51,560 bases of DNA from Chitinophaga pinensis (GTDB lineage Bacteria; Bacteroidota; Bacteroidia; CAMBQF01): positions 1 to 51,560 of the forward strand of contig CAMBQF010000004.1 in NCBI GenBank assembly GCA_945869825.1, given 5' to 3'. Each line of letters starts with the position of its first letter. Positions within the stretch are counted from its first letter, which is position 1. This document shows positions 26,414-38,309 of the stretch, piece after piece. The notes below the pieces were generated by a model. It saw nothing but the letters and a program-made list of their open reading frames with translations, had not been told where the DNA came from and made no database searches. A program made the position numbers and the translations under genes.

Positions 26414-26448
26414 AAGCCGTATTGATTATTCAATGCGGCTTTTTATTT
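26414..26448 (+). terminator. Terminator after the T9SS protein gene
   Basis: AAGCCGTATTGA (26414-26425) pairs with TCAATGCGGCTT (26430-26441) with one wobble, followed by TTTATTTT. Confidence 0.8.
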
Positions 26449-26507
26449 TCGATATTTTATGTAATTTCATCGCCACTATTGCTACATATAAAGAAACAAA
26501 AAACACA

Positions 26508-27608
26508 ATGGGAATTTTTGATAAGTTAAGAGGAGAGTTTATTGATATCATTGAGTGGGTAGATGCTACACACGATACAATAATCTACAAGTTTCCGCGC
26601 TACAACAACGAGATAAAAATGAACGCTAAACTTGTGGTTCGCGAATCGCAGGAAGCGTTATTTTTAAATGAAGGGCAGCTGGCCGATACATACAAGCCCG
26701 GCACTCATACCCTTACAACACAAAATATGCCCATACTGTCTACCCTGCGTGGTTGGAAGTATGGTTTTGAAAGCCCTTTTAAGGTTGATGTATACTACGT
26801 TAGCACCAAACAGTTTATTGGGCAAAAATGGGGTACATTAAACCCTATTACATTAAACGACGACCGCTTTGGAATGATTGAACTGCGTGCCTTTGGTGTG
26901 TTTGGCTTTCAGGTTATAGATGGCGGCAAATTCTTTAAAGAAGTAGCCGGTACTAACCCTAACTTTACTACCGAAGGTGTTTTTGGTCAGCTACGCAGCA
27001 TTGTTGTTACACGCTTTACCGATATGTTGGGAGAGTCGGGCATTACAATAGACCGCATTGCCTCTAACCTTGACGAGATTTCTAAACTTGGCTTAGAGCG
27101 CATTAACCCTGATTTGGAAGGTTACGGCATTAAGCTTACCAACTTTTTGGTAGAGAATGTTTCTATGCCTGATGAGCTTAAGAAAGAGATATTTGAATAC
27201 TCACGCCTTAATAAGGTAGATATGCAAAAGCTGGCCCAGATGAAAGCTGCTAAAAGCATTGAAATTGCAGCGGGCAATGAGGGTGGTGCAGCAGGCATTG
27301 GTACTGGTATAGCATCGGGTATGGCTATTGGCAACGTTATGTCAAACTCGCTGAACACACAACAAAACAATGGTGGCGGTAATACCATGCCACCTCCTGT
27401 TGCACAATACTATTATGCTGTAAACGGCGAGCGTAAAGGCCCCTTTGGTGCAGAACAGTTGCCCGCCCTTGTAGAAAGTGGCGAAGTAAAACAAGACACC
27501 ATGGTTTGGAAAACAGGCATGGCCGACTGGGCTAAAGCATCTACCGTTGCTGATTTTGCCAATGTGTTTACCAGCGTTCCACCACCTCCTCCTCCACCGG
27601 CTATCTAA
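26508..27608 (+). CDS. SPFH-domain protein with C-terminal GYF-type domain (YdjI-like)
   Basis: 366 residues from ATG 26508; the frame is open upstream but MGIFDKLRGEFIDIIEW is the usual start of this family. The SPFH/band-7 region covers about 25-235 (LVVRESQEALFLNEGQLAD, PGTHTLTTQNMPIL, LRAFGVFGFQVID, LDEISKLGLERINPDLEGYGI, FLVENVSMPDEL). A Gly/Ala-rich stretch (AAGIGTGIASGMAIGNVMS) leads to a GYF_2 domain (YYYAVNGERKGPFGAEQL, VWKTGMADWAKAS) and a polyproline end (PPPPPPPAI). The family includes Bacillus subtilis YdjI, a membrane-associated scaffold in the pspA-ydjGHI operon. The next gene, 12 bases on, is a zinc-ribbon membrane protein. Confidence 0.88.
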   Translation: MGIFDKLRGEFIDIIEWVDATHDTIIYKFPRYNNEIKMNAKLVVRESQEALFLNEGQLADTYKPGTHTLTTQNMPILSTLRGWKYGFESPFKVDVYYVSTKQFIGQKWGTLNPITLNDDRFGMIELRAFGVFGFQVIDGGKFFKEVAGTNPNFTTEGVFGQLRSIVVTRFTDMLGESGITIDRIASNLDEISKLGLERINPDLEGYGIKLTNFLVENVSMPDELKKEIFEYSRLNKVDMQKLAQMKAAKSIEIAAGNEGGAAGIGTGIASGMAIGNVMSNSLNTQQNNGGGNTMPPPVAQYYYAVNGERKGPFGAEQLPALVESGEVKQDTMVWKTGMADWAKASTVADFANVFTSVPPPPPPPAI

Positions 27609-27620
27609 TGATTCTGACTG

Positions 27621-28739
27621 ATGAATTTTGACGAAAAAACAGCCGATGTAAACAACACCCTTAAGTGTAAAAACTGCGCCGCATCGTTAACCTTTGCACC
27701 GGGTACCAAAAGCCTGGTATGCCAGTATTGCGGCACTACCAACGAAATAACACATAGCGAAGAAGAGTTTAAAGAAATTGAGGAGCTTGATTATTTCGAC
27801 TACGAGCATGTTAACGATGCTGAGAAATATACCGTTCAGGTTTTAAAATGCAACTCGTGCGGGGCGTCAACCACGTATGATGGTAAAACCGCAGCCAGCA
27901 GCTGCCCTTTTTGTACCGCGCCATTGGTTGTTACCGGAGGCGGACAGGCGGCCAGTATTATCAAACCAAAATCGCTGATACCGTTTGTGGTAGACCAAGC
28001 AAAGGCTATAGAAAAGTTTAAAAGCTATGCCAAAAACCAGTGGTTTGCCCCCGATGCTTTTTTAAAGCTAACCAAAAACCACGATAAGGTAAAAGGAATG
28101 TACATTCCTTATTGGAGTTTTGATGCCGATGTGCACACCCAATATGTTGGCCAGCGTGGGGTTGACTATATAACCACAGAAACCTATACCACTACCGAAA
28201 ATGGTAAAAGCGTAACCCGCACGCGTAACGTAACCCGAACTAACTGGTGGCCTGCCAGTGGCGAGGTAGACAATACATTTGACGATTTGATGGTTACAGC
28301 ATCGAGCACTTTACCGGTTGATGTTGCCAACAACCTTGACCCCTGGGATAGCAATGGCTTAGTACCATATAACGACAGCTACATAGCTGGTTTTGTGGCC
28401 GAGATGTATAACATTGAGCTGAAGGCTGGTTTTGAAACGGGCAAGCAAAAAATGTGGCCCACTATAGAACAGACCATTTGTAATAATATTGGTGGCGACC
28501 ACCAGCGTATTACCCGGCACCAAAGCAACTACTCAAACGTTAAGTTTAAGCACGCACTGCTACCCATCTGGATAAGCGTAGTGCCCTATAAAGAAAAGAA
28601 ATATTACTTTTTGGTAAATGGCCAAACAGGCAAGGTACAAGGGCAACAACCATACAGCGCCATAAAAATTATACTGGCTGTAATACTGGCACTTATCATA
28701 ATATTTGGCATATACTGGGCTACCCAGGCAGGCGAATAA
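27621..28739 (+). CDS. Double zinc-ribbon membrane protein, partner of the SPFH protein
   Basis: 372 residues. Two zinc ribbons occupy the N-terminus: CKNCAASL...CQYCGTT (about 16-40) and CNSCGAS...CPFCTAP (about 77-102), the TFIIB/'primosomal N'-like' type. A long alpha/beta region follows (IPFVVDQAKAIEKFKSYAKN, KGMYIPYWSFDADVHTQYVG, VTRTNWWPASGEVDNTFDDL), and one transmembrane helix lies near the end (IKIILAVILALIIIFGIYW), leaving a short tail. In Bacillus, YdjG is a zinc-ribbon protein beside SPFH protein YdjI; here the same two types sit in one operon, 12 bases apart. The role is probably membrane stress or scaffold assembly, by analogy only. Confidence 0.85.
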   Translation: MNFDEKTADVNNTLKCKNCAASLTFAPGTKSLVCQYCGTTNEITHSEEEFKEIEELDYFDYEHVNDAEKYTVQVLKCNSCGASTTYDGKTAASSCPFCTAPLVVTGGGQAASIIKPKSLIPFVVDQAKAIEKFKSYAKNQWFAPDAFLKLTKNHDKVKGMYIPYWSFDADVHTQYVGQRGVDYITTETYTTTENGKSVTRTRNVTRTNWWPASGEVDNTFDDLMVTASSTLPVDVANNLDPWDSNGLVPYNDSYIAGFVAEMYNIELKAGFETGKQKMWPTIEQTICNNIGGDHQRITRHQSNYSNVKFKHALLPIWISVVPYKEKKYYFLVNGQTGKVQGQQPYSAIKIILAVILALIIIFGIYWATQAGE

Positions 28740-29148: not shown

Positions 29149-31785
29149 ATGAAATTTGGCTGGGGAAAAAAAGACGAAACAAGCAATAACTTCAAGTTTA
29201 AAGAGATAAAGGTTTACTCTTCAAACGAGTGGATGGCGTATGGTGGAAAAAAGTACCGTCAGGTATTTGAAAACACCGAAACCACCTATATGTACTTTGA
29301 AGTATCGCTATACAACAAGCTGTTTGACGAAGAAGACTGGAACATAAGCCTTACCGTAAAAGGCTTTCAGCTGGAACCCGGCAACAAGCGCCGCGAACTT
29401 TGCAGCCTTGATTTATCAAAAAAAGTATCAAAGGAAGAAAATATTGTCTATTTCCGCGATGGGTGGGGAATGGAGACCCAGGGTTCTTTCTGGCGACGGG
29501 GCGATTATATCTGGGAAGCCTACGTTGACGGGGAACCTATTGGCGATGCCAAGTTTTTTATAGAAGATGGTGGCGGCGTATCGCCAGACTACAACCCGTA
29601 TTTTGAGGTTAACAACATAAAGCTATACGAGGGCAATTTTGAAGGTATTGATAAAGACAAAAGGGTTTATTTAAACCAGTTTAGCAAGTCGGAAACTAGG
29701 TATGTATGGATTGAGTTTAACATACAGAACAAACAGTCAAAATCATACTACTGCGAGCTGTTTTTTAATTTTTATGATAATGCCCATCAGCTAAAAGCAT
29801 CTACCAGCATAAACAATAATGTACCCGATAATACCGAGGGCCATATATTTACCTATACCACTGGTTGGGGTAGCGATATACCCGGCACATGGGTAGACGA
29901 AAGCTATACCGTTGAAGTGGTATTTATGGACCAGCTACTGGCCATAGTACCTTTTGATGTGGATGAAGAGCACGAAGAAGGCGAAGTGAAAATTTATAAG
30001 GCCGGCAACCCATTTTTAATGGACGAACACGAAATTGCCCAGGCTGCCGAAACCGAACATAAGCTGGAAGACCTGTTAACCGAGTTTAACGCGTTGATTG
30101 GCCTTGATGAGATGAAGAAAAAAATTCACGATTATGTGAATTACCTTAACTTTATAAAGCTACGTAACGAGCGTGGTTTTAAAGACTCATCAAAAATAAA
30201 TCTCCACTCTGTATTTACCGGCAACCCCGGCACCGGAAAAACCACGGTGGTACAATACCTGGCTAAGATATACAAGTCGATGGGATTATTAAGCAAAGGA
30301 CATGTTTACGAAGTTGACCGCTCTGATTTAATTGGCGAGTTTATTGGCCAAACAGCACCTAAAGTTAAAGAAGCTATTGAACAGGCCCGTGGCGGCATTT
30401 TGTTTATTGATGAAGCTTACGCCCTGTCGCGCGACCAGAACGACACTAAAGACTACGGCAAAGAGGCCATAGAGATTTTAATAAAGGAAATGAGTGATGG
30501 CCCCGGCGATGTTGCCATAATTGTGGCAGGCTACCCTACCGAGATGGAAACTTTCCTTAACTCAAACCCCGGCTTAAAATCGCGTTTTAACCAGTATTAT
30601 GCCTTCCCTGATTATACGCCAACCGAATTGTTAGCTATTGCCATGCAATATGCCGATAAAAACGCGGTAACGCTTACCGATGATGCCAAGGCATATATGG
30701 AGCTTAAACTTACCGAGGCATACCGCAACCGCAACCGCCAGTTTGGCAATGCACGCTATGTGGTGGGCGTTATAGACCAAAGCAAGCTTGATTTAGGCTT
30801 ACGCCTGATACAGCATGGCAACCTGGATGCGCTAACCGAAGAGCAGCTCAAACAAATTACTGTTGAAGACCTGCAAAAGGTATTTAATGATACTAAAAAA
30901 CCGCAGGTTGAAATTAAGATTGATGAGCCACAATTAGCCGAAGCATTAGTTGAATTGCACAGCCTAACCGGTTTAGAAGACGTTAAAAAAGAAATTGACG
31001 AATTGGTGCGCCTGGTGCGCTTTTACCGCGAAACGGGTAAAGATGTAACAAACCGTATATCATTACACGGTGTATTTACGGGCAACCCTGGCACAGGTAA
31101 AACAACGGTAGCCCGCATTATTGCCAAGATTTATAAAGGCCTGGGCTTGCTGGAGCGTGGGCACTTGGTAGAAACCGACCGCGAAGGATTAGTAGCAGCC
31201 TTTGTGGGCCAAACAGCCATTAAAACCCAGCAAAAAATAGACGAAGCCCAAAACGGGATGTTGTTTATTGATGAGGCTTACGCCCTATCGCGCGGGGGGA
31301 ATGATTTTGGCAGCGAAGCCATAGAAACCCTGCTCAAAAAAATGGAAGACCTGCGCGGTAAGTTTGCTGTAATTGTTGCAGGCTATACCGATAATATGAA
31401 GGTGTTCCTGGAATCAAATCCGGGCTTAAAGAGCAGGTTTGACAAGGTATATGAGTTTAAAGACTACTCAGTAGAGCAGTTATATAGCATTGCTGCTAAT
31501 TTGTTTAAGAAAGAAGAACTTACACCGAATGAGGAGGCTGTTACCCAACTGAAAAAATACCTGCAAGACTTATACGACAGCCGCGATAAATTCTTTGGCA
31601 ATGGCCGTACGGTGCGCAATATGGTAAACCAGGCGGTACGTAACCAACACTTACGTTTGGCGGCAATTCCATCGGCTGAGCGGACACCGGAGATGCTTTT
31701 AACATTGACTTTAGATGATGTGAAAGAGTTTATAGCTAAAAATGATACCGGCGCAAGATTAGGTTTTAGGTCTACCAATAGGTAG
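29149..31785 (+). CDS. Tandem CbbX/SpoVK-type AAA+ ATPase with duplicated N-terminal beta module
   Basis: 878 residues, cytoplasmic. The N-terminal ~275 residues hold two similar beta-rich modules, about 13-137 and 150-268: each begins with [EN]-I-K-[VL]-Y and has an aromatic W/Y-x-E-[FV] strand, a DGWG or TGWGS turn with following Trp, and a final strand ending in FDV or FIED. An acidic linker (EEHEEGE) leads to AAA+ domain 1 (Walker A GNPGTGKTT 358-366, Walker B ILFIDEA 417-423, sensor/arginine region NPGLKSRF) and AAA+ domain 2 (Walker A 645-653, Walker B 704-710, NPGLKSRF again). Both look active. The AAA type is that of CbbX (Rubisco activase), SpoVK and the EccA ATPases of type VII secretion. 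The target is unknown; the duplicated module may be the substrate adaptor. Confidence 0.9.
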   Translation: MKFGWGKKDETSNNFKFKEIKVYSSNEWMAYGGKKYRQVFENTETTYMYFEVSLYNKLFDEEDWNISLTVKGFQLEPGNKRRELCSLDLSKKVSKEENIVYFRDGWGMETQGSFWRRGDYIWEAYVDGEPIGDAKFFIEDGGGVSPDYNPYFEVNNIKLYEGNFEGIDKDKRVYLNQFSKSETRYVWIEFNIQNKQSKSYYCELFFNFYDNAHQLKASTSINNNVPDNTEGHIFTYTTGWGSDIPGTWVDESYTVEVVFMDQLLAIVPFDVDEEHEEGEVKIYKAGNPFLMDEHEIAQAAETEHKLEDLLTEFNALIGLDEMKKKIHDYVNYLNFIKLRNERGFKDSSKINLHSVFTGNPGTGKTTVVQYLAKIYKSMGLLSKGHVYEVDRSDLIGEFIGQTAPKVKEAIEQARGGILFIDEAYALSRDQNDTKDYGKEAIEILIKEMSDGPGDVAIIVAGYPTEMETFLNSNPGLKSRFNQYYAFPDYTPTELLAIAMQYADKNAVTLTDDAKAYMELKLTEAYRNRNRQFGNARYVVGVIDQSKLDLGLRLIQHGNLDALTEEQLKQITVEDLQKVFNDTKKPQVEIKIDEPQLAEALVELHSLTGLEDVKKEIDELVRLVRFYRETGKDVTNRISLHGVFTGNPGTGKTTVARIIAKIYKGLGLLERGHLVETDREGLVAAFVGQTAIKTQQKIDEAQNGMLFIDEAYALSRGGNDFGSEAIETLLKKMEDLRGKFAVIVAGYTDNMKVFLESNPGLKSRFDKVYEFKDYSVEQLYSIAANLFKKEELTPNEEAVTQLKKYLQDLYDSRDKFFGNGRTVRNMVNQAVRNQHLRLAAIPSAERTPEMLLTLTLDDVKEFIAKNDTGARLGFRSTNR

Positions 31786-33046: not shown

Positions 33047-33171
33047 AACTATATACCTGTTAAGGGGTGGCAAATATACAATTTTCTGCAAAAGTTGCAA
33101 CCCGCGTTAATTTACCCTTAATTTTTAGCACTAATAGGCTTTAGTTATTGCCATTGCATTGTATTATAGAG

Positions 33172-33179
33172 TAATTTTG
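33172..33179 (+). promoter_or_regulatory. TAnnTTTG -7 element of the TonB receptor/DUF4249 operon
   Basis: TAATTTTG, 42 bases before ATG 33222; it lies inside an upstream extension of the open frame and so favours the later start. Confidence 0.6.
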
Positions 33180-33221
33180 CACTCCTTACAATATAAACAC
33201 CCGTCAATCGTTCAACACAAC

Positions 33222-35585
33222 ATGACAAAGTACTTAGTTGGCCTTATTTTACTAGTAGTTTTACAAGTGCCCAATGCCCTTTTTGCCCAAAATTTTGCCA
33301 TTAGCGGTACAATTACCGATGCCAAAACCGGCGAGACCATGATTGGGGCTACCGTAATTTTAAAAGAAAACGGCAAAGGCGCTGCCACCAACGTGTATGG
33401 CTTTTACTCGCTAAGCTCAGAAAAAGGCACGTATACACTTGTTGCATCGTACCTTGGATACGAAGACTATAAGCAAACCGTAGTACTTGATAAAGACCAA
33501 CGCATAAGCATTGCCCTTAGCCCTAAAGCCATTACCACCAAAACAGTAGAAATTACAGGTGAGCGTAACGACGATAACGTTACCAAAACCACCATGGGCC
33601 AAATAAAGCTGGATATTAACACCATAAAAAACATACCCGTTTTTATGGGCGAGGTGGATGTGTTGAAAACGATACAACTACTGCCAGGCGTAAAAGGAGG
33701 CAGCGAAGGCAACGCCGGTTTTTATGTACGTGGCGGCGGGCCCGACCAAAATCTTATTTTGCTTGATGAAGCTACGGTTTATAACGCAGGCCACTTGTTT
33801 GGTTTCTTCTCTGTTTTTAATGGCGATGCCGTAAAAAGCATCAACCTGATAAAAGGCGGTATGCCTGCACAGTATGGCGGGCGCTTAGCATCGGTGCTGG
33901 ATATCAGCATGAAAGATGGTAACAACCAGAAGTTTCATGGCGATGGAGGGATTGGCCTTATTGCATCACGCTTAACACTGCAAGGGCCTATTGTAAAAAA
34001 CAAAGCATCGTTCATTCTATCGGGTCGCCGCACTTATGCTGATATTTTGGCGCAGCCCTTTATTGCCGACACCTCACCATTTAAAGGATCGGGCTACTAT
34101 TTTTATGATTTAAACGCCAAAGTAAACTGGCAAATTGGCGACCGCGACCGTGTGTTTTTGAGCGGTTATTTTGGGCGCGATGTATTTACCTTCTCTAACC
34201 AGGATTTTGGCTTTAAAACAAAAATAGCCTGGGGTAACGCCACCCTTACCGGTCGTTGGAACCACGTATACAACGACAAGCTATTCTCTAACGTATCGCT
34301 GATATTTACTGATTATAAATTTAGCTTTGATGCATCGCAGGCTGAGTTTAAGCTTGGGTTTTACTCTGGCATACGAGATTATAATGCCAAGCTGGACTAT
34401 ACATGGGTGCCCAGTGTGCGGCATAACGTTAAGTTTGGCCTAAACTACATTTACCATAAGTTTACCCCTAACAACGCATACGCATCGGCTGGCGACCAGG
34501 ACTTTAACCTTGGCGAGCCGGAAACACTATATGCCAATGAGGGTGCCTTGTACATAAGCGATGATTTTGATGTAACCGAGAAATTCTCAATAAGTGCCGG
34601 TTTACGCTTATCAGGCTTTCAACAGATTGGTCCGTTTACCCGCTACTACAAAGACAGCCAGGGCTACACTACCGACTCTGTAAACTATGGCCGTGGCGAA
34701 TCTATTAAACTATATGGTGGGCTTGAGCCACGCCTGGCAGTTAAATATGCCTTCAACTCTAAAATGTCAGTTAAAGCATCGTACACCCGCAACCTTCAAT
34801 ACCTGCACTTAACCAATATTGCATCTATATCATTACCAACTGATTTATGGTTTCCATCAACCCAACGCGTACAGCCACAAATTGGCAGCCAGTATTCATT
34901 GGGTATATTCCGCAACTTTGCCGATAATACCTGGGAAACATCGGTTGAGGTGTATTATAAAAACATGCTAAACCAGATTGAATACAAAGACGGGTATGTG
35001 CCGGGGGCGTCGTTAAACGATAACCTTGACAACTCGCTGGTATTTGGACGCGGCTGGGCCTATGGCTCTGAGTTTTTCGTAAAAAAAGCCCTGGGTAAAA
35101 CAACAGGCTGGTTGGGTTATACCCTGTCGTGGACCCAACGTAAGTTTGACGCCATAAACGGTGGCAAGCCCTACTTTGCACGCTACGACCGCCGCCACGA
35201 CGTGCAATTTATCATCACCCACGAGTTTAGCCCAAAATGGACAGCGTCAGCCGTATGGGTATATTCAACAGGCAATGCATTAACCCTGCAAACAGGCCGC
35301 TATATATACGATGGCAACATTGTTAACGAGTTTGGCCCCCGCAATGATTTCCGCATGATACCCTATCACCGAATGGACCTATCGGTAACATGGACAGCGA
35401 AGAAGACAGAGAAGTTTACATCGGCCTGGAATCTTTCTATTTACAACGTATATAGCCGTATGAACCCTTACTTTATATACTTTGCCGCCGAGGGCGACAT
35501 AACGCAGGGGCAAATAAAATTATCAGCGCGCCAGGTATCGCTGTTTCCTATTATACCTGCAATTACATGGAACTTTAGCTTTTAA
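33222..35585 (+). CDS. TonB-dependent outer membrane receptor with carboxypeptidase-like regulatory domain
   Basis: 787 residues from ATG 33222, which gives signal peptide MTKYLVGLILLVVLQVPNALFA (then Q); the frame starts 63 bases earlier, but that part precedes the promoter box. Residues about 25-110 form the carboxypeptidase D regulatory-like domain (ISGTITDAKTGETMIGATVI, NVYGFYSLS, YLGYEDYKQTVVL). The plug (about 130-240) includes KTIQLLPGVKGGSEGNAGFY, VRGGGPDQNLILLDEATVYN and GGMPAQYGGRLASVLDI. The rest is a 22-strand type barrel ending in WNFSF with the terminal Phe. There is no SusD partner; instead its stop overlaps by one base the start of the first of three DUF4249 lipoproteins. Substrate unknown. 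Confidence 0.92.
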   Translation: MTKYLVGLILLVVLQVPNALFAQNFAISGTITDAKTGETMIGATVILKENGKGAATNVYGFYSLSSEKGTYTLVASYLGYEDYKQTVVLDKDQRISIALSPKAITTKTVEITGERNDDNVTKTTMGQIKLDINTIKNIPVFMGEVDVLKTIQLLPGVKGGSEGNAGFYVRGGGPDQNLILLDEATVYNAGHLFGFFSVFNGDAVKSINLIKGGMPAQYGGRLASVLDISMKDGNNQKFHGDGGIGLIASRLTLQGPIVKNKASFILSGRRTYADILAQPFIADTSPFKGSGYYFYDLNAKVNWQIGDRDRVFLSGYFGRDVFTFSNQDFGFKTKIAWGNATLTGRWNHVYNDKLFSNVSLIFTDYKFSFDASQAEFKLGFYSGIRDYNAKLDYTWVPSVRHNVKFGLNYIYHKFTPNNAYASAGDQDFNLGEPETLYANEGALYISDDFDVTEKFSISAGLRLSGFQQIGPFTRYYKDSQGYTTDSVNYGRGESIKLYGGLEPRLAVKYAFNSKMSVKASYTRNLQYLHLTNIASISLPTDLWFPSTQRVQPQIGSQYSLGIFRNFADNTWETSVEVYYKNMLNQIEYKDGYVPGASLNDNLDNSLVFGRGWAYGSEFFVKKALGKTTGWLGYTLSWTQRKFDAINGGKPYFARYDRRHDVQFIITHEFSPKWTASAVWVYSTGNALTLQTGRYIYDGNIVNEFGPRNDFRMIPYHRMDLSVTWTAKKTEKFTSAWNLSIYNVYSRMNPYFIYFAAEGDITQGQIKLSARQVSLFPIIPAITWNFSF

Positions 35586-36490
35586 TGAAAATGAAAATAG
35601 CTAAGCATATATTTTGGTTAACCTTTTTCGGACTGGTGTTTTTTTATGCCTGCGAAAAAGAAATTACCGTTGACCTGCCAAAGCCCGACCCTAAGATTGT
35701 GGTAGAAGGGTACGTTTTTGAGGGTGAGCGGCCATACGTAATCCTGTCACGCAACACAGGCTATTTTGAGCCCATTGACTCTGCATCACTAATCAATAGC
35801 TTTATTTTTGATGGTGTGGTTACTGTTAGCGATGGAATTAATACTGATACGCTTACGTTTCAATCGGCTGCAGAATCTGTATTAGGCTTTGCTTATGTAA
35901 AAACCAACCCGACAGTAGTTGGGCAGGCTGGCAAAACCTATACACTAACCGCAACGGCCGATGGGCAAACAGTTACCGCTGTTACCACCATAATACCACC
36001 ACTGGCGTTAGACAGTATTTTGTGGAAACCACAGGTAAATGAAGACAGCCTCGGTTTTGTCTGGATATACTTTACCGACCCTGGTGTTGATTTACGCGGC
36101 TACCGCATTATGTCTCGCCGTGTTAGCGCAAATCCTGAACGTAACCAGCCCTACTTCCGTACTAATTTCTACTTTGAAAACTCATTGTTTTCGGGCCAGC
36201 AGGCACCCGTAGGTTTTGACCAGGCCAGCCAGTATGGCGAAGATTTGCTTGCAAACCAACCTGAAGACCCTGACGATGGCTATTTTCGAGTAGGCGATAC
36301 GGTTGAGGTAAGGCTTTGTACTATTGATAAACCCTATTACGATTTTTTAAATATGTTGGGCAACTCTACCAGCAGCAATGGCAGCCCTTTTGCATCACCG
36401 AACAATGTAATTGGCAATGTGATAGGCGGCCTTGGTGGCTTTGGTGGCCATGGGGTTGCGCAGTATCGCATAGTGTGTACCTTTCCATGA
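35585..36490 (+). CDS. DUF4249 lipoprotein, copy 1
   Basis: 301 residues. The signal ends FYAC (lipobox), and the mature protein begins EKEITVDLPKPDPKIVVEGY, the family's opening with an Ig-like beta domain. VLSRNTGYFEPIDSAS-like segments, VGQAGKTYTLTATADGQTV, FTDPGVDLRGYRIMSRRVSA and DTVEVRLCTIDKPYYDFLN follow. DUF4249 genes typically sit behind TonB receptors in Bacteroidota and are thought to be outer-membrane surface partners. Start ATG overlaps the receptor TAA by one base (TAATG); its own stop overlaps the next ATG (ATGA). Confidence 0.9.
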   Translation: MKMKIAKHIFWLTFFGLVFFYACEKEITVDLPKPDPKIVVEGYVFEGERPYVILSRNTGYFEPIDSASLINSFIFDGVVTVSDGINTDTLTFQSAAESVLGFAYVKTNPTVVGQAGKTYTLTATADGQTVTAVTTIIPPLALDSILWKPQVNEDSLGFVWIYFTDPGVDLRGYRIMSRRVSANPERNQPYFRTNFYFENSLFSGQQAPVGFDQASQYGEDLLANQPEDPDDGYFRVGDTVEVRLCTIDKPYYDFLNMLGNSTSSNGSPFASPNNVIGNVIGGLGGFGGHGVAQYRIVCTFP

Positions 36491-37392
36491 TGATAAAAAC
36501 AACATACAAAGCCATTTTTACCGCTGTAGCAATGGCTATTGGCTTGGTGTTGTTACAAAGTTGCGAGAAAGAGATTACCGTAGACCTGCCTGCCCCTGAC
36601 GCTAAAATTGTGGTAGAAGGGTATATTTTTGAGGGCGAAAGGCCGTATGTAATCTTATCAAAAAACGCGGGTTATTTTGACCCTATAGACTCTGCCGCTA
36701 TAGCTAACATATTTATTTTTGATGCCATTGTTACCGTAAGCGATGGCACCAATACTGATACCCTAACCTTTCAGCCTGCAGCAGAATCAGCTTATGGGTT
36801 TGCATATGTAAAACAAAACCCAACCGTTACCGGGCAGGCAGGAAAAAACTACAACCTAACCGTATCTGCCATTGGGCAAACAGTAACATCAACCACACGT
36901 ATAATACCAATGGTGCCCCTTGACAGCTCCAAATGGGTTGAATATGAAGATTATGACTCGCTTGGCTATGTATATGTGCATTTTACCGACCCCGGTATTG
37001 ATGAGCGAGGCTACCGTGTGTTCTCTCGGCGTGTTAGTGCCAACCCTGAGCGTAACGAGCCATTATTCAGGCCAAATTTTTATTCTTCAAACCGCTTTTA
37101 TAAAGGGCAGCCTATAGAATTTGGCATATCGCGCGCACGCCAGTTTAGCGACCAGTTTAGCGAGGACAACCCCGACCCTGACTTACGCAGCTATCGCTTA
37201 GGCGATACCGCGCAGGTGCGTATTTGTACTATGGATTTGCCCAATTATAGTTTCTATAACTCACTAAGCAATTCTGATAATTCGGGTAACCCATTTTCGG
37301 CACCGGGCAATGTACAAAGCAATATTGAAGGTGGCCTTGGCTGTTGGGGTGGCTATTGTGTAAATCAATTTCAAATAATCTGCTACCCATAA
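36487..37392 (+). CDS. DUF4249 lipoprotein, copy 2
   Basis: 301 residues from ATG 36487, which overlaps the previous stop by four bases (ATGA); a second Met follows directly. Lipobox LLQSC. The mature part begins EKEITVDLPAPDAKIVVEGY and runs parallel to copy 1 over its whole length (ERPYVILSKNAGYFDPIDSA, DPGIDERGYRVFSRRVSANP, YRLGDTAQVRICTMDLPNY, SAPGNVQSNIEGGLGCWGG). Several stretches are near-identical, so the copies arose by tandem duplication. Confidence 0.9.
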   Translation: MMIKTTYKAIFTAVAMAIGLVLLQSCEKEITVDLPAPDAKIVVEGYIFEGERPYVILSKNAGYFDPIDSAAIANIFIFDAIVTVSDGTNTDTLTFQPAAESAYGFAYVKQNPTVTGQAGKNYNLTVSAIGQTVTSTTRIIPMVPLDSSKWVEYEDYDSLGYVYVHFTDPGIDERGYRVFSRRVSANPERNEPLFRPNFYSSNRFYKGQPIEFGISRARQFSDQFSEDNPDPDLRSYRLGDTAQVRICTMDLPNYSFYNSLSNSDNSGNPFSAPGNVQSNIEGGLGCWGGYCVNQFQIICYP

Positions 37393-38309
37393 TGACAGCC
37401 ATTGCGAAATACACTAATATTTACACCCTGCTAGTGGCGGCATTAGGGTTTGTTGTATTTCAATCGTGCGAGAAAGAAATAACGGTAGACCTACCCCAGC
37501 CCGACCCAAAAGTGGTGGTTGAAGGGTATATATTTCAAGGCTCGCGCCCATATGTGCTGTTGTCCAGAAATTCAGGATATTTTGCTCCTATTGATTCTGC
37601 CACGCTGGCAAACTCTATAATATACGATGCCATTGTAGTAGTTAGTGATGGTACTAATACTGATACACTTACGTTTCAGCCAGCTAATGAGTCGCCGGTA
37701 AAATATGGGTATGTAAAACAAAACCCTGGTGTTATAGGCCAGGCAGGAAAAACATACACACTGCTGGTTATAGCTAATGGCGATACAGTAACATCAACCA
37801 CAACCATTATAGCATCGCCACCCATAGATAGCCTGGAATGGAAGGTGGCAGGGGTTGATAACGACTCGCTGGGGTTGATATGGATTTACTTTAGAGACCA
37901 GGGGATTGATGAGCGGGGCTACAGGCTAATGTCTAAACGCACCAGCAGTATACCCGGCCGCAACGACCGTATTTTTAGGCCCAACACCCTGCTTTTTAAC
38001 CAAAATTTTTACGGGCAAAACTACTATTTTGGAGTAGGCAGGCCCGATAAGTTCGGCGAGGGCTTATCTGCAGACAAATATGACCAGGCTGATAAAAAGC
38101 GCTACCGCCTTGGCGACACGGTAAAAGTACGTTTATGCAGTATTGATTTGCCTGCTTACTACTTTTTGAACAGTGTAAAAAAATCGATGGATGCGAGTGA
38201 TAGCCCATTTGGGGCGCCAAACAATGTTCAAAGCAATGTAACCAATGGCCTTGGCTGCTGGATTGGCTACGGGGTAAGTGAGCAAAAAATTGTTTGTTTT
38301 CCTGAATAA
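37392..38309 (+). CDS. DUF4249 lipoprotein, copy 3
   Basis: 305 residues from ATG 37392, sharing one base with the previous TAA. Lipobox VFQSC. EKEITVDLPQPDPKVVVEGY opens the mature protein; GYFAPIDSATLANSIIYDAI, DQGIDERGYRLMSKRTSSIP and FGAPNNVQSNVTNGLGCWIG align with copy 2, but the region between about 195 and 250 differs most (FNQNFYGQNYYFGVGRPDKF). The gene ends 5 bases from the stop of the convergent gene. Confidence 0.9.
   Translation: MTAIAKYTNIYTLLVAALGFVVFQSCEKEITVDLPQPDPKVVVEGYIFQGSRPYVLLSRNSGYFAPIDSATLANSIIYDAIVVVSDGTNTDTLTFQPANESPVKYGYVKQNPGVIGQAGKTYTLLVIANGDTVTSTTTIIASPPIDSLEWKVAGVDNDSLGLIWIYFRDQGIDERGYRLMSKRTSSIPGRNDRIFRPNTLLFNQNFYGQNYYFGVGRPDKFGEGLSADKYDQADKKRYRLGDTVKVRLCSIDLPAYYFLNSVKKSMDASDSPFGAPNNVQSNVTNGLGCWIGYGVSEQKIVCFPE

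Follow-up and report, generated by a model that had tools for sequence, protein, structure and literature searches.

A tandem beta-sandwich domain fronts a two-motor AAA+ protein of the CbbX/SpoVK/EccA kind in Bacteroidota

The open reading frame (ORF) at positions 29149-31785 of the DNA stretch analysed here (51,560 nucleotides of contig CAMBQF010000004.1, Chitinophaga pinensis assembly GCA_945869825.1; hereafter the window) encodes a two-motor AAA+ protein related to CbbX, SpoVK and EccA. At its front it carries an anciently duplicated beta-sandwich domain without a name. Its position had been given correctly in the original prediction, which was made from the sequence alone; the frame starts with ATG, is 878 amino acids long and has no signal peptide evident by eye. 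The protein is probably a cytosolic, substrate-specific remodelling chaperone of this clade, a hexamer threading a client that is docked by the sandwiches. What was observed directly is the domain make-up, the intact motor motifs of both AAA domains, a conserved architecture and a duplication that is ancient. The features are as follows, with motif residues numbered along the ORF sequence:

29149-31785, forward strand: whole ORF, 878 amino acids, in the order module A, module B, AAA D1, AAA D2
29185-29565, forward strand: module A, approximately residues 13-139, beta-sandwich (repeat comparison, AlphaFold2, family profiles)
29596-29964, forward strand: module B, approximately residues 150-272, beta-sandwich of eight strands (AlphaFold2, family profile)
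30034-30903, forward strand: AAA+ D1 with lid, approximately residues 296-585 (Pfam, motif patterns); Walker A GNPGTGKT at 358-365, pore loop FIGQTA with F398, Walker B LFIDEAY with D421-E422, then GY, NPGLKSRF and FGNAR
30904-31752, forward strand: AAA+ D2 with lid, approximately residues 586-868 (Pfam, motif patterns); Walker A with K651, pore loop FVGQTA with F685, Walker B with D708-E709, then GY, NPGLKSRF and FGNGR

Pfam recognised PF00004 (AAA) and PF17866 (AAA_lid_6) in two stretches each. NCBIfam ranked SpoVK best, followed by CbbX and EccA, and the nearest solved chains were CbbX 3zuh (E 3e-53) and EccA1 9lur (E 2e-45). We assign the protein to the SpoVK-CbbX-EccA clade on its AAA core with AAA_lid_6 and its best match to the models of that clade. 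The sensor-1 GY of the clade is present as AGY in D1 and D2, and its second Arg finger as FGNAR and FGNGR, respectively; the FGN.R box is, we assume, sensor 2. The NPGLKSRF of both domains carries the Asn, with six residues to the presumed finger Arg, compared with four to the first Arg finger in the description of the clade. A motif survey covered 22 of the 41 proteins of the two-module, two-AAA form, the 19 fetched later being left out. Both domains of all 22 had the Walker A and Walker B motifs, a pore loop with an aromatic residue, GY and FGN.R, and the Arg-finger box was found, under the strict pattern NPG..SR, in 20/22 for D1 and 21/22 for D2. As the motifs are kept across the proteins examined, two full motors are the rule for the form found in the window, and the earlier statement that both ATPase domains keep all motifs was correct for the Walker A, pore-loop, Walker B, GY, Arg-finger and sensor-2 boxes.

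In the phmmer alignment with CbbX, F398 stands opposite a pore-loop Tyr of CbbX, presumably Y114. According to PMC5437159, the tail of the client is threaded by the pore-loop tyrosine of CbbX, and the Y114A exchange abolished remodelling while ATPase activity was kept. According to PMC10659427, the studied members of the clade are dedicated, narrow-range chaperones whose variable N-terminal domains are proposed to recruit clients, they have no peptidase fusions or partners, and the N-terminus of SpoVK was required for co-purification of MurG. The window's protein is similar to these in the AAA core, AAA_lid_6, GY, NPG..SR and FGN.R of both domains, in having no peptidase domain and in the variability of the N-terminal domain. 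It differs in its tandem beta-sandwich N-terminus, which is matched by no Pfam or NCBIfam model, and in having two AAA domains per chain; furthermore, it is not from a Firmicute, and no Rubisco was found in 60 genomes.

None of the named members of the clade could be equated with the protein. SpoVK proper belongs to sporulating Firmicutes and has a short N-terminus of three strands and one helix, as opposed to the 280-residue tandem N-terminus of this Bacteroidota protein, and the SpoVK score of 523 bits against a cut-off of 423 is a sum over two domains. Similarity of the AAA part would be compatible with the protein being CbbX itself, the activase of red-type Rubisco, or EccA itself, which serves type VII secretion; nevertheless, CbbX scored 422.9 bits against a cut-off of 459.25 and EccA 420.2 against 466.65, in both cases with two domains contributing. 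RuBisCO_large was absent from all 60 relatives searched, the window's own genome included, in a search that matched 5 of 14 control genomes, and no TPR was matched by Pfam up to E 10 in the N-terminal 273 residues. Either identity is therefore extremely unlikely. An anti-phage defence ATPase of the IetA type is very unlikely as well: PADLOC IetA models matched the AAA part (E 4e-18) and NCBIfam IteA gave 50 bits, but the latter is far below the cut-off of 510, the matches span only the shared AAA core, and the family is old and stable in architecture.

The N-terminal part had been proposed to consist of a duplicated beta module of about 120 residues, and this was borne out, the copies measuring about 125 residues. 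BLASTP of residues 1-140 against 141-290, with composition correction off and a search space of the two sequences, gave 24/112 identities at E 5e-7. The local BLOSUM62 score of residues 13-137 against 150-268 was 71, compared with a mean of 31 (SD 5.7) for shuffled sequences, and 0 of 1000 shuffles reached it. Profile-profile comparison of the two module halves over the family, taken from an alignment of the module pair with 18 sequences (A1), yielded a probability of 98.4% and E 7e-15 over 120 columns. As all three comparisons were significant, the internal repeat is real. The sequence features noticed beforehand, I-K-[VL]-Y, a GWG turn and a Trp after the turn, are also genuine: in the numbering of the window's protein, G241 and W248 occur in 67/67 module copies, W240 and Y174 in 65/67, and a Gly preceding W240 in 52/67.

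The N-terminus matched no described domain, and neither this check nor the test for an internal repeat went against the original prediction. Pfam and NCBIfam recognised only the ATPase part of the ORF; up to E 10, Pfam gave only chance-level matches to the module pair and to each single module (best SH3b_P2, 0.013). When the 67 module copies were compared with Pfam at E 0.1, 23 families appeared, each in at most three members; the carbohydrate-binding domain Wzt_C (PF14524) was not among them. The best match was DUF3859 (E 0.0016, one copy), for which no mention was found in openly licensed PMC text; 1/247 phylum genomes had a match to it, below the cut-off, which was too little for a profile to compare with the module. 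PHROGs gave only weak matches to the 67 copies (best 7e-4), phrog_806, of unknown function, matching three of them. The PDB, searched by sequence with the N-terminal part, returned nothing below E 0.05, and a plasmid search returned no match. No paper on the fusion was found in openly licensed PMC text, although the architecture figure (3A) of PMC10659427 may include it.

Structure predictions covered the module pair and module B. AlphaFold2 on the A1 alignment modelled two separate beta-sandwiches (mean pLDDT 88.3), with residues 1-11 and 27-32 below pLDDT 50, and module B alone, from 67 copies, as eight strands at pLDDT 94.9. Each module is thus predicted to be a beta-sandwich. Foldseek with the two-module model ranked RbmA of Vibrio cholerae first (E 1e-9). 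RbmA similarly has two beta-sandwiches in tandem, but identity is 10%, the pair superposes poorly (rmsd 13) and the fold is common; we take RbmA to be a secreted biofilm protein. For the single module, the carbohydrate-binding domain of Wzt from A. aeolicus (8dne/8dky) ranked first (E 7e-6, TM 0.62), and VIA-align gave Z 10.9 at 2.6 A over 106 residues. Near-equal matches were sandwich domains of GH2 (Z 10.8) and AlkC (Z 10.7), and further ones UNC119, RbmA and GH3 domains. The sandwich fold is therefore common, and function is not shown by fold alone. In Wzt, this carbohydrate-binding domain attaches to the sugar that caps the O antigen (PMC9445017). It is likewise a beta-sandwich, but its Z is tied with those of other sandwiches and kinship with the module has no sequence support. 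In hhalign, Wzt_C reached 0.9% probability and a score of 16.0, the best unrelated control 0.5% and 16.1, with a Wzt_C profile from 8 of 17 loci; in the sequence fetched for the other nine, no reading frame bearing an ABC signature was 380-520 aa long. Homology to Wzt_C was accordingly rejected as demonstrated kinship and retained as a possible lead from the modelled fold.

It should be added that the module has a wider distribution. When the N-terminal part of the window's protein was used alone as the query, 14 of 60 relatives gave matches; A1 found them in 24/395 genomes of the phylum and 66/295 of the class, and the single-module alignment A2 in 45/395 genomes of the phylum. The 67 A2 copies all matched one iterated profile, trained on these same copies, at E 4e-29 or below. 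Architectures were counted for 78 module proteins, the window's included, in the stretches fetched, which are a part of all matches. Two modules with two AAA domains were present in 41/78 (856-911 aa), and this architecture is conserved. Two modules stood with one AAA domain in two proteins (L020, L078), and two weak modules (E 0.0024 and 9e-7) with three AAA domains in one, L170:7063-10500, a divergent 1145-aa relative from the same class as the window. One module was combined with three AAA domains in 26 and with two in one (L075), and seven proteins had no AAA domain. Among these seven, L065:5475-6311, L066:5526-6362 and L067:37-873 (278 aa each) and L068:5113-7047 (644 aa) have two modules behind a hydrophobic, signal-like start and look exported, signal peptides having been judged by eye; L150 (215 aa) and L151 (153 aa) have a single module each, and L034 (310 aa) is cut by a contig end. 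The module exists without AAA domains and therefore has uses beyond AAA docking.

The one-module proteins with three AAA domains come from other Bacteroidota families (f59, f77, f88) and form a sister form at 27 loci (L069-L077, L133-L149, L152). Three one-module proteins were scanned with Pfam: L070 and L076 have TPR by name ahead of the module, and L071 has weak TPR_19 and ANAPC3 matches. The sister form shares one copy of the module and the AAA clade with the window's protein; it differs in the TPR in front, the single module and the number of AAA domains, three, with frequent degeneration of the third. The first AAA kept Walker A, pore loop and Walker B in 26/26, in comparison with Walker B in 17/26 and an aromatic pore loop, by pattern, in 1/26 for the third; decay of the last motor is thus common there. 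In L071:4332-8177 and L075:5201-7495 later AAA domains have no Walker A or Walker B by pattern, resembling pseudo-ATPase rings, and in L075 the TPR part is missing. The supposed contrast with EccA and its TPR front is weaker than expected, given a sister form in which TPR, one module and three AAA domains are combined.

In the maximum-likelihood tree of the 67 module copies, 25 first repeats formed one group (support 100/98) and 25 second repeats another (99/99), nine copies of the TPR form a third (99/98) and eight exported-looking copies a fourth (85/90). The tree is based on 133 columns, with deep forks poorly resolved and the root not known. As first and second repeats form separate groups, the duplication predates the spread of the two-AAA form, and no sign of exchange between the repeats since then was seen in this tree. 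A tandem pair that was kept, with both copies ancient and separately conserved, would also suit a structural role, in which the sandwiches stabilise or template the double ring, or tie it to a membrane or scaffold, and do not select the client. We regard this as possible, though not likely, as the module also occurs free-standing and exported-looking, a sign that it may bind something by itself, and the single-AAA forms L020 and L078 retain both modules.

Remodelling of a client docked by the sandwiches is the reading we prefer. The protein would act as a hexamer, its ATPase domains stacked as two rings and its twelve N-terminal beta-sandwiches arranged as a crown on which one dedicated client docks. 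A tail or loop exposed on the client may then be gripped by the aromatic pore loops of both rings (F398, F685) and pulled in cycles of ATP, and the outcome would be activation, release or reassembly of the client, not degradation. The protein is equipped for CbbX-like work with two rings, and the sandwiches occupy the position of the recruiting domains of the clade. The original suggestion of a remodelling factor agrees with this clade, since those members that have been studied act as dedicated chaperones (PMC10659427); the module may bind the substrate, as had also been suggested. The architecture described there, two beta modules from a duplication followed by two CbbX-type ATPase domains, was right.

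Gene neighbourhoods had been put forward as a further check. For the window's form, no conserved neighbour was found at 45 loci, and the commonest specific neighbours occurred in four. An ABC-ATPase cluster, which is a broad family, was near it at 7/45 loci. A family-2 glycosyltransferase and RsmG were found at 4/45 (families f100 and f105), the glycosyltransferase directly downstream at three of the four (gaps of 5, 37 and -4 bases) and inverted upstream at the fourth; being present at only four loci, this unit is a lineage feature at most. In the window itself, 26433-28739 (forward strand) encodes a Band_7/SPFH-GYF_2 protein and then a zinc-ribbon protein with a hydrophobic C-terminal stretch, a pair which we take to be reminiscent of YdjI and YdjG of the PspA system in B. 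subtilis. The two genes were rejected as partners, as they lie upstream in 3/3 genomes from the window's genus, while the other families that were examined lack them at this place. On the other side, 33159-38309 (forward strand) encodes a TonB-plug/CarboxypepD_reg receptor and then three tandem DUF4249 paralogues.

Of the 27 loci of the TPR form, 26 could be tested, L136 stopping at a contig end; at 15 of these the gene was accompanied downstream by a same-strand ABC ATPase and PF16949 permease. The ABC pair lay 12-56 bases away at 12 of the 15 loci, and the other three gaps were -41, 334 and 605. As the 15 loci lie in two families (f59, f77), the count is partly due to shared descent. The PF16949 permease family was found in none of the 60 relatives of the window and therefore cannot be a general client. 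Moreover, GroES-GroEL stood upstream of the TPR form on the same strand at 5/27 loci, all from f77, once with an intervening gene, which speaks for a chaperone role. Together with two complete ATPase rings bearing aromatic pore loops, it would also accord with a general stress disaggregase or unfoldase, a two-ring machine like ClpB. That role is nonetheless unlikely: occurrence is patchy (66/295 class genomes), studied clade members are narrow-range (PMC10659427), and at the 45 loci of the window's form GroEL does not recur as a neighbour.

As to the nature of the client, a more specific and rather doubtful proposal takes the module to be a sandwich that recognises glycans or glycolipids, and the family to consist of remodellers in envelope assembly. 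The sandwiches would recognise a nascent surface polysaccharide, or its synthase and exporter, and the AAA+ ring might pull the enzyme or transporter complex into an active state, as proposed for SpoVK and MurG. The hints are the top, albeit tied, fold match to Wzt, the ABC pair beside the TPR form, the glycosyltransferase directly behind the window's form at three loci from two families, and the exported-looking copies; the neighbours among these hints are confined to certain lineages.

With this N-terminus the family brings a new type of front end to a clade in which N-terminal domains were already known to vary. Few branches of this clade have known clients, namely Rubisco, MurG and type VII substrates. 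The family adds to the clade a well-conserved two-ring branch, bearing a domain for which neither Pfam nor NCBIfam has a model. Its sister branch brings a candidate partner, the ABC transporter. Furthermore, the exported-looking copies of the module could be solved and screened for ligands by themselves, and a ligand of the module, if found, would point towards the client.
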